Shown one piece after another: positions 26,879 through 61,075 of a DNA stretch of 64,000 bases (within the stretch, counting starts at the first letter, position 1; every line of letters starts with the position of its first letter). The stretch spans positions 1,488,001-1,552,000 of the forward strand of contig NZ_CP100404.1 of the NCBI RefSeq assembly GCF_024218775.1. The letters run 5' to 3'. The notes under the pieces were generated by a model. That model was not told where the DNA came from, searched no databases, and saw only the letters and a program-made list of their open reading frames with translations. Both the position numbers and the translations under genes were made by a program. This stretch comes from Haloarcula marina. GTDB taxonomy: Archaea > Halobacteriota > Halobacteria > Halobacteriales > Haloarculaceae.

Positions 26879-26896
26879 AGCCGCGTTTTTCCGAGG

Positions 26897-27132
26897 CACG
26901 GGACCGGATTTGAACCGAGCGGAGACGGTCGGCCTCGCGTCGGTCGGCCGCTGCGACTCCTCGGGTTCAGAATCCGCTCGTTTCGATTGCTGCTGCTCGC
27001 GGGTTTGCTCGCAGCAGCAATGCGCGGGACCGGATTTGAACCGGAGCAAGAAATGCTCGCTCACATTCGTTCGCTGCGCCTTACTTGCAGGGTTCAAGTC
27101 GGTCCTGCTCTTCGCTCACTTCGTTCGCTCAT
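26897..27132 (-). repeat. tRNA-3'-end repeat array downstream of tRNA-Leu
   Basis: Read in tRNA direction, the tRNA 3' end is followed by two units, each ending in a copy of the tRNA 3' end. One copy, at 27021-27044, is identical to the tRNA for 24 bases including T-arm and acceptor. The other, at 26897-26917, keeps 19 identical bases. Unit lengths are about 112 and 124 bp. The second unit begins with a perfect 10-bp hairpin (ttgctgctgc/gcagcagcaa, 26987-27020) and contains a core complementary to ctgcgactcctcgggttcag (26951-26970). Spacer motifs of the gcgaacgaagtgagcga type occur at 27054-27074 and 27111-27130. The same parts occur downstream of tRNA-Gly at 60945-61074. Confidence 0.75.
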
Positions 27133-27215
27133 GCGCGGGACCGGATTTGAACCGGCGGACCCCTACGGGATAGCGTCCTAAGCGCTACGCCTTTTCCTGG
27201 CTCGGCAACCCGCGC
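27133..27215 (-). tRNA. tRNA-Leu (anticodon UAG)
   Basis: 83-base class II tRNA on the minus strand. The acceptor stem GCGCGGG pairs with CCCGCGC, followed by discriminator A; CCA is not encoded. The anticodon stem TAGCG/CGCTA holds the loop CTTAGGA, giving anticodon TAG, which reads CUA leucine codons. A long variable arm (TCCCGTAGGGGTCCG) and the T-loop TTCAAAT are clear. No intron is seen. Its 3' end is duplicated downstream. Confidence 0.93.
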
Positions 27216-27301: not shown

Positions 27302-27610
27302 ATGTATCGGGCCAGCGACCGGGTCGAACAGGAGACGTGGCTTGCGGAAATCGAGGCGGCCGCCGAGACGCTGGACCTCGGGACACAGGCCCGGTCGCAC
27401 GCCGTCGACCTCTTTCTCTCGACACTCCCCGACGAGGACCGGTCGAAGCGCGCGTCGATGGCGGCGAGCGTTTACGTCGGCGCACTCGTCGCGGGCGAAG
27501 AGCGCTCGCAGACCGCCGTCGCCGACGCGACAGACGTGTCTCGGCTGACGATTCAGCAGCGGTGGAAAGACCTCTTAGAGAGCGTCGGTCTGGAAGCGCC
27601 GAACTGGTGA
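27302..27610 (+). CDS. TFB-like single cyclin-repeat protein
   Basis: 102 residues. The stretch MAASVYVGALVAGEERSQ, followed by TAVADATDVSRLTIQQRWKDL, closely resembles the second cyclin repeat of archaeal TFB, including the recognition helix that reads the BRE. The zinc ribbon, B-reader/finger and the first cyclin repeat of a full TFB are absent, so it cannot recruit RNA polymerase in the normal way. It may be a DNA-binding regulator or TFB competitor (inference). Its last codons (GLEAPNW and stop) are encoded by the first copy of a 30-bp tandem repeat. Confidence 0.78.
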   Translation: MYRASDRVEQETWLAEIEAAAETLDLGTQARSHAVDLFLSTLPDEDRSKRASMAASVYVGALVAGEERSQTAVADATDVSRLTIQQRWKDLLESVGLEAPNW

Positions 27611-27706
27611 CTACGAGGTCTGGAAGCGCCGAACTGGTGACTACGAGGTCTGGAAGCGCCGAACTGGTGACTACGAGGTCTGGAAGCGCCGAACTGGTGA
27701 CTACGA
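27587..27706. repeat. Four perfect 30-bp tandem repeats spanning two stop codons
   Basis: The 30-bp unit begins ggtctggaagcgccgaactg and ends gtgactacga. It occurs four times without change at 27587, 27617, 27647 and 27677. A fifth copy decays after about four bases. The TGA of the TFB-like gene is in copy 1. The TAG of coaD, on the other strand, is in the last bases of copy 4. There are no spacers, so this is not CRISPR. Because 30 is a multiple of 3, every copy repeats the same in-frame stop. Confidence 0.95.
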
Positions 27707-28189
27707 GGGCTGGCCGCGCCCTTCTCGCTCGGGCGTGAGGTTCCCGTGTTCGTCGATTTCGCCGTTGACGATACGCGTCGAGGAGATGATGTCGCCGTCG
27801 TCGGCGTAGACGTGCGGGACGACGACAATCTCCAGTTCGTCGTGGCCGCGGTCGCGCCGGATTTCGTTGATGCGTTTGCCGCCGGTTTCCGTCTCGGGCG
27901 AGACGACGAGGGCGTCGAACTGCGCCTCCGTGGCGATGCCGGTCGGTTCGGAGAGTTCGCGTATCTCCCAGGACTGGTCGTACTGCGCGCCGAGGCGTTC
28001 CAGTTCGTCGGCGAGGGCCGCCCGGCGGTCGGCGTAGGGTTGGACGTACCGGTTGTCCTGGCGGGTCTTCGGCGCGAGGTCGTCACTGGTGAGTCCGACA
28101 GTTACATCGCCGAGTTCGAACGCGCGCTCGAACAGCGCGCGGTGCCCGTCGTGGATGGGGTCGAACGTACCCCCCAGCGCGACCTTCAT
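27701..28189 (-). CDS. coaD: Phosphopantetheine adenylyltransferase, archaeal type
   Basis: 162 residues from the ATG at 28189 (MKVALGGTFDPIHDGH). GGTFDPIHDGH is the nucleotidyltransferase HxGH-type site and IISSTRI is the second ATP-binding motif. The enzyme makes dephospho-CoA from 4'-phosphopantetheine and ATP. The frame is open 15 codons further up, but this adds a polar segment not seen in the family. The C-terminal tail after VNGEIDEHGNLTP is short and its stop is inside the 30-bp repeat array. Confidence 0.9.
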   Translation of the reverse strand: MKVALGGTFDPIHDGHRALFERAFELGDVTVGLTSDDLAPKTRQDNRYVQPYADRRAALADELERLGAQYDQSWEIRELSEPTGIATEAQFDALVVSPETETGGKRINEIRRDRGHDELEIVVVPHVYADDGDIISSTRIVNGEIDEHGNLTPEREGRGQPS

Positions 28190-60850: not shown

Positions 60851-60873
60851 GAATGACGCCGCGAACGCAGTGA

Positions 60874-60944
60874 GCGGCGGTGGTCTAGTGGCAGGACCTG
60901 AGCCTTCCAAGCTCATGGCCCGGGTTCAAATCCCGGTCGCCGCA
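60874..60944 (+). tRNA. tRNA-Gly (anticodon UCC)
   Basis: 71 bases. The acceptor GCGGCGG pairs with TCGCCGC (one G-T), followed by discriminator A; CCA is not encoded. The anticodon stem GAGC/GCTC encloses CTTCCAA, anticodon TCC, reading GGA. The T-arm CCGGG-TTCAAAT-CCCGG is perfect. No intron. Copies related to its 3' end follow downstream. Confidence 0.94.
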
Positions 60945-61075
60945 TTTTGCTTCGAGCAGTTCGCGAGCAGCAAATGCTGTACAGAGGGTTTGAATCCTAC
61001 GAGTCGCAGTGTGCACAGCGAACGGAGTGAGCGAGCACTACCGTCTCGGTCCGGTATGAATCCCGGTCGCCGCAT
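60945..61075 (+). repeat. tRNA-3'-end repeat unit downstream of tRNA-Gly
   Basis: A unit of 130 bp begins right after the tRNA. It has a hairpin-forming tttgct...agcaaa (60946-60974), a core ttgaatcctacgagtcgcag (60990-61009), a spacer gcgaacggagtgagcgagca (61018-61037) and a copy of the tRNA 3' end at 61051-61074 whose last 14 bases are identical. The core matches 16 of 20 bases of its counterpart next to tRNA-Leu. The spacer nearly matches the one there (27054-27074). Confidence 0.75.

Follow-up and report, generated by a model that had tools for sequence, protein, structure and literature searches.

Gene-less units ending in tRNA 3'-half copies behind haloarchaeal tRNA genes: likely att-site-only integrative cassettes

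tRNA-targeting integrative elements have been described in Haloferax gibbonsii, where strain LR2-5 carries 11 partial tRNAs, several of them directly adjacent to the full copy (PMC7921747), and provirus-type tRNA copies of 22 and 43 nt have been described in Haloquadratum (PMC3119063). Cis-mobilisable elements (CIMEs), or accretion remnants, are flanked by attL and attR, and in the E. coli tyrT repeats, or rtT RNA, a tRNA is followed by tandem units that each include a copy of its 3' end. The H. gibbonsii partial tRNAs were described as remnants, without unit structure, inverted box, hairpins or distribution in the sections bearing on them; they are likely the same tail copies that concern us here, seen at annotation, with sequence identity unchecked.

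Here, we show precise presence and absence of small units at tRNA 3' ends, regeneration of the tRNA by a duplicated tail, distal decay, module exchange, a site shared with integrase elements and a conserved fold. The window, by which we mean the whole 64-kb stretch of haloarchaeal DNA analysed, holds three such units behind two tRNA genes. Rfam covariance models gave no match at the window loci except for the tRNAs, and the units match no catalogued RNA family, RtT included. In the open-access literature that we searched, only the H. gibbonsii partial tRNAs and the Haloquadratum provirus-type copies came to light, and an earlier description elsewhere, e.g., in subscription papers or supplements, is not excluded. 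The original prediction, made from sequence alone, could not tell whether the element was catalogued; judging by Rfam and the open-access literature, it apparently is not.

Unit anatomy behind tRNA-Leu and tRNA-Gly

Along the tRNA strand, each unit runs in the order hairpin 1 (HP1), inverted T-arm box, hairpin 2 (HP2) and a tail copy of host tRNA positions 54-73, where HP1 is a hairpin with a varying stem, HP2 is a nested hairpin, and the final part comprises the host T-loop and acceptor 3' half. The units are gene-less and about 110-150 bases in size, with one to three per occupied tRNA; their bodies, mostly 67-158 nt, are therefore too short for any recombinase gene.

The array host, tRNA-Leu(TAG), lies on the minus strand at 27132-27215 (ARAGORN; Rfam RF00005), with its attachment half, T54-N73, at 27132-27151. 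Directly downstream, Leu unit 1 (27131-27021, minus strand; 91+20 = 111 bp) begins with HP1 at 27106-27131, which contains the tandem-GA motif GCGAACGAAGTGAGC, and continues through the inverted T-arm box GGACCGACTTGAACC at 27091-27105 and HP2 at 27041-27090, matched by covariance model R1 (G000:C1:1515032-1515100), to a tail copy at 27021-27040 that is identical to tRNA-Leu positions 54-73 at 20/20 bases (0/20 mismatches). Leu unit 2 (27020-26895, minus strand; 106+20 = 126 bp) follows with HP1, a TTGCTGCTGC...GCAGCAGCAA hairpin, at 26980-27020, the inverted T-arm box GAGCGGATTCTGAACC at 26964-26979, HP2 at 26915-26963 (R1 match G000:C1:1514906-1514974) and a distal tail copy, TTCAAATCCGGTCCCGTGCC, at 26895-26914, which agrees at 18/20 positions (2/20 mismatches).

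The second host, tRNA-Gly(TCC), is found on the plus strand at 60874-60944 (ARAGORN; Rfam). Behind it lies a single unit of 130 bp (60945-61074, plus strand), with HP1 at 60945-60980, the inverted T-arm box ACAGAGGGTTTGAATCC at 60981-60997, HP2 at 60998-61054 (R1 match G000:C1:1548987-1549063) and a tail copy of tRNA-Gly positions 54-73 at 61055-61074, matching at 17/20 positions (3/20 mismatches).

HP1 and HP2 often share a motif in which Watson-Crick pairs enclose two G.A mismatches (GCGAAC..GTGAGC or GCGAGC..GCGAGC). The form CGAAC..GTGAG has four matches in the 64-kb window, three within units and one overlapping the tRNA-Gly 5' end; since about two would be expected by chance, the count itself is no evidence, and only the placement is. 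Hairpin motifs of this kind lie downstream of 129/244 tRNA loci and upstream of only 16/244. The match at the tRNA-Gly 5' end, upstream of the tRNA, occupies window positions 60862-60874 (plus strand). As a separate observation, positions 27587-27720 (plus strand) hold a 30-bp tandem repeat of 4.5 copies, in which the final codons and stop of a 102-aa open reading frame (27302-27610) are combined with a spacer, the 3' end of the frame being multiplied.

Much of the original prediction held at these loci. It gave 112 and 124 bp for the Leu units and 24 identical bases for one copy, and both are correct to within 1-2 bases (111 and 126 bp measured; a 25-nt repeat). The recurrence of a hairpin, core and spacer beside tRNA-Gly in the same order and orientation was confirmed, as was the claim that each unit carries its own host's 3' end. 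What it missed is that the 'core' includes an inverted T-arm copy, GGATTTGAACC on the tRNA strand, the reverse complement of GGTTCAAATCC, and that each unit therefore holds a long inverted repeat.

Occurrence, host specificity and the tail-copy junction

Among the first 81 tRNA loci fetched, copies of tRNA positions 54-73 with ≤6 mismatches were present within 200 nt downstream in 47/81, with 0/81 upstream and 0-1/81 in shuffled sequence. At ≤5 tail mismatches, units occupy 15/41, 23/41, 18/42 and 18/43 tRNA loci in four species (37-56%); the Leu and Gly units of the original prediction are confirmed, and their family is far larger than it described. In the window genome, units stand behind tRNAs for Gly, Arg, Val, Asp, Tyr, Pro, Gln, Ser and Leu, with degenerate units at those for Lys and Met. 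tRNA-Asp(gtc) is itself tandemly duplicated in three genomes (G012, G006 and G019; loci L145, L171 and L197), and units, where present, follow the second copy.

With a strict pattern, units were recovered from the majority of genomes in the window's order, and the reversed control pattern gave 0 matches; all 30 strict-pattern loci that were fetched lie behind a tRNA, one of these being judged by sequence alone, as ARAGORN called no tRNA there. Covariance model R1, in a scan that scored a limited number of candidates per genome, matched 51/53 sampled genomes of the order vs. 2/242 others in the phylum, those two weakly. Within the window genome, 16/17 R1 matches are directly downstream of a tRNA and in the same orientation, and the 17th is a tRNA-Thr(ggt) unit displaced by 8.4 kb by an integrated element. 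The proposed test of recurrence beside other tRNAs was thus passed, with many isotypes across the order, and the refuting case, units widespread away from tRNAs, was not seen.

For one exact HP2 type, the scan of the genome collection gave a single named match, in Halobacteriales archaeon QS_4_70_19 at tRNA-Leu(TAG), and on this match we take the window's order to be Halobacteriales. The only match in the plasmid search was a stretch of a Natronorubrum bangense megaplasmid, and the phage records searched contained no unit match. A strict-pattern match occurred in 59 viral contigs; the nine with matches on both strands were examined, and none has a haloarchaeal unit. Five of the nine (L262, L273, L283, L284 and L297), which we take to be probable prophages of a bacterium (host unverified), carry an inverted T-arm hairpin of bacterial type that ends in a tRNA 3' half.

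The inverted box follows its own host. In a gapped test, its alignment score was 9.79 to its own tRNA vs. 7.57 to the genome's other tRNAs, with a permutation maximum of 8.11, and at base 57, A57 hosts are matched by T in the inverted box in 35/38 cases and G57 hosts by C in 19/19. An ungapped test was weak, the own host being unbeaten in only 36/82 units, because the inverted box often falls one base short of the T-stem in length; the gapped test was used instead.

The tail copy is also host-specific, only in part. Taking every copy together, departures from the host sequence are most frequent at positions 55-57 and almost absent at 58-62. Across genera, many species have Val(gac) arrays (L215-L221, L230 and L243) whose tail copies read GGTTCAC, vs. 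GGTTCAA in the tRNA; this includes an array from another family (L243), and positions ~58 to 73 match the host even there, where the host differs. The mismatch profile and the Val(gac) variant together indicate that the tail copy is a hybrid, with the element on the left and the host on the right, joined in the T-loop. Plain tRNA pseudogenes were considered and rejected, as the host identity of the copies begins only in the T-loop.

Preservation is best in the copy closest to the tRNA. Among copies with ≤5 mismatches, the first T copy has 0.85 mismatches and the last 2.33 (p = 2e-4), and a looser cut gives 1.23 for the nearest vs. 3.89 for the last (p = 2e-6). Tail variants are spread among distal copies, as in the Val(gac) arrays and Lys(ctt) of G012, so array growth is not strictly proximal.

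These observations bear on target-site duplication, in which a transposase or Cas1-like integrase would cut the tRNA 3' half with a stagger of 15-20 bp and insert HP1-inverted T-HP2 there. The topology does resemble that of CRISPR arrays and casposons, with a constant leader (the tRNA), a duplicated segment and the most decayed copies at the distal end, and the regenerated tail is host-derived. Against this model, the inverted box is host-specific as well, which duplication alone does not give, and tail variants travel with the units; we regard target-site duplication as very unlikely.

Turnover, module exchange and a site shared with integrase elements

At orthologous tRNAs of close relatives, arrays differ in unit number and type. 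One such case is tRNA-Ile, where one genome (G006) carries a 147-bp unit (127+20 bp) with precise boundaries, and five relatives (G012, G019, G022, G028 and G031) share an identical empty site, the tRNA end running into the same flank (TTGGCCCA|TACCGAGTTCTT). The original prediction had proposed a search for empty sites in close relatives, and this one meets it. At Leu(gag), a unit is present in two species and the site is empty in a third. A further genome (G016) retains at tRNA-Ile an apparent relic of the HP1 of the G006 unit, and the donor was therefore probably an Ile-specific lineage. How closely the species are related was gauged by flank identity, which over the Leu region is 94.6% and 91.6% to G006, rather than on a core-genome tree.

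The hairpin modules are shuffled between units, with the junction at the T-boxes (the inverted box). Unit pairs that share HP2 number 260 at different tRNAs vs. 154 at the same tRNA, whereas pairs that share HP1 number 136 at the same tRNA vs. 31 at different ones (10% same-tRNA expected), and both modules are common to only 33/548 module-sharing pairs. Exchange across the universal T-loop sequence would produce this pattern, because HP2 is flanked by universal halves and HP1 by tRNA-specific ones.

The same site receives integrase elements. At tRNA-Thr(ggt) of the window genome, an 8.4-kb element (L353, C1 323125-331590) sits between the tRNA and its unit; it encodes a PF00589 tyrosine integrase together with a D12 methyltransferase and a DpnII endonuclease, and ends on the far side in 34 nt copied from the tRNA-Thr(ggt) 3' end. 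Similarly, the unit found beside tRNA-Val(cac) in G012 lies on another contig in G006, adjoining a PF00589 integrase gene, and is directly preceded there by a tail copy of 15 nt that begins at the same point of the T-loop, ATCC (ATCCGCCCCAACCCA). We infer that the rest of this G006 element starts at tRNA-Val(cac) on contig C50. Such stacking at tRNA-Thr(ggt) and tRNA-Val(cac) means that units and integrase elements share one attachment site. At another locus (L025), a broken integrase-like reading frame without a Pfam match follows the distal copy of a unit. The window genome has 16 PF00589 matches, and none was singled out as the mover.

We also considered that the units might be the ends of integrase elements left over after internal deletion. 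This was rejected, since the element ends seen (L030, L353 and L356) do not have HP1 or HP2 as their own ends.

Two side observations concern integrase and provirus-like loci. Directly downstream of tRNA-Val(cac) on C50 of G006 (L361; 24677-26924), over a dozen tRNA genes are densely arrayed in a provirus-like manner. On two of the viral contigs mentioned above (L284 and L297), the inverted T-arm hairpin ends in a tRNA 3' half and adjoins a PF00589 integrase gene, so the same arrangement of inverted box, loop and T-box exists in elements with their own integrase.

Conserved fold, proposed mechanism and related systems

A 21-pair structure was assessed in 26 aligned segments reaching from the inverted box to the T-loop. 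In these, 96.7% of cells are paired vs. 84.5% when shuffled, 73 cells show double changes vs. 22.3 shuffled, and the covariation score is 0.379 vs. 0.144 shuffled and ≤0.079 when slid. For part of the set, the selecting pattern had itself fixed the outer helix, and weight should therefore be given to helices 2 and 3, which show compensatory change at 9/11 pairs. Fractions for the conserved stems translate to ~13 of 546 cells with G.T and one with A.C, and this excess favours the tRNA-sense strand as the folded strand, either as RNA or as single-stranded DNA. The tandem-GA motif has the same bias, with 301 tRNA-sense vs. 3 antisense matches in 157 units, and circularised units fold with a mean z of -3.6 in sense vs. 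-2.6 in antisense. G.U pairs in the circular fold are not commoner on the sense strand (2.12 vs. 2.71 antisense), and the strand asymmetry is therefore not uniform.

A strand-biased, covarying fold invites comparison with a structured RNA in the tRNA trailer, like E. coli rtT, that would be transcribed with the tRNA and act in processing or regulation, with array changes as by-products of recombination. The preference of the tandem-GA motif and of G.T cells for the tRNA-sense strand, the greater stability of the sense fold and the covariation all speak for this model. Against it, about half or more of the tRNAs have no unit and close species differ at orthologous tRNAs, so no tRNA needs one; Rfam matches only tRNAs here; the site is common to integrase elements; the strand bias fits folded single-stranded DNA equally; and the G.U pairs of the circular fold lack the sense bias. 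On balance, we consider a trailer RNA unlikely.

A second alternative dispenses with a site-specific enzyme. In polyploid haloarchaea, T-arm repeats would recombine by ordinary homology or microhomology, or undergo gene conversion, while template switching at quasi-palindromes kept the hairpins complementary. In its favour, each T-box is a short repeat in direct or inverted orientation, the inverted box matches the host at the level of single bases, changes in the stems are compensatory Watson-Crick swaps, and repeat-mediated deletions are known in Haloquadratum (PMC3119063). Taken alone, it does not account for the gain at tRNA-Ile, for modules being exchanged over a stretch of universal T-loop sequence only about 11 bp long or for the integrase element breaking at the same point, and we doubt that it is the explanation.

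The reading we prefer, and regard as likely, is that the units are minimal, protein-free, att-site-only integrative cassettes housed at tRNA 3' halves and moved in trans by tyrosine integrases, where the enzyme, the mobilisation in trans and the circle are inferred. A tyrosine integrase encoded by resident proviruses or plasmids would act in trans and recombine DNA across the T-loop, at roughly positions 57-61; the inserted form would be a circle of T + HP1 + inverted T + HP2, and the tRNA would stay functional, followed by the unit and by a hybrid tail with the element on the left and the host on the right. Less securely, the inverted T-box may pair with the T-box of its own strand, rebuilding a double-stranded att site with HP1 and HP2 as the end loops. 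Such a folded site, like those of attC or CTX-phi attP(+) (PMC4792948), would account for the requirement that the inverted box match the host tRNA. A role as RNA, or repair by template switching, would also keep the box matched to its host, and the only grounds for the single-strand step are covariation and strand asymmetry, both likewise expected of a functional RNA.

Several points weigh against the cassette reading: a double-stranded circle of 110-150 bp is very small, presence and absence, taken by themselves, could result from deletion between direct repeats together with occasional homologous transfer, and the spread of tail variants among distal copies does not fit strictly proximal growth. 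No excised circle or active movement was observed. The predicted tiny non-coding element that uses tRNA 3' ends as attachment sites is supported, with the enzyme and present-day movement not shown.

A bolder version is possible, in which the units are an archaeal counterpart of integrons: protein-free DNA cassettes of about 110-150 nt folded as single-stranded dumbbells, the folded strand being the recombination site, in arrays behind tRNA genes in nearly all haloarchaea. The proposed dumbbell has the T-box paired with the inverted T-box and hairpins at both ends; recombination of the single strand is an inference.

If the cassette reading is true, the units are among the smallest mobile elements housed at tRNA genes, near-universal in one archaeal order and apparently uncatalogued. 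They would offer a testable model for non-coding cassettes that parasitise tyrosine integrases, for how folded-strand recombination sites such as those of integrons and CTX-phi arose, and for why tRNA 3' ends bear many stray partial copies. The units also confound the annotation of 'partial tRNAs' and provirus ends.

Among known systems, haloarchaeal tRNA-targeting elements and proviruses, with a tyrosine integrase and a partial tRNA at the far end, are alike in attachment site and regenerated tRNA 3' end, and in two cases share a tRNA with a unit; they are kilobases long and encode an integrase, whereas the units measure about 110-150 bp and have no gene. Scattered haloarchaeal elements of the PATE or MITE type differ in that the units, judging by the R1 matches of the window genome, are not scattered away from tRNAs. 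The E. coli tyrT repeats (rtT) also form tandem units ending in tRNA 3'-end copies, but there they are near-identical repeats at one tRNA, whereas the haloarchaeal units are diverse mosaics at many tRNAs, with an inverted T-box and no Rfam match. CIMEs, as generally understood, likewise have att copies at both sides, no recombinase gene and tandem accretion, and the units meet a CIME-like criterion in sharing their att site with an integrase-bearing element; CIMEs hold leftover genes, whereas the units have a conserved two-hairpin body common to the whole order, which is not a random remnant. With integron attC and CTX-phi attP(+) (PMC4792948), the units share a palindromic site with structure conserved more than sequence, fixed-site arrays and inverted copies able to fold into a double-stranded site; they differ from integron cassettes in that single-strand use is not shown, no attI or integron integrase has been identified, there is no gene cargo, and the platform is the tRNA T-arm.
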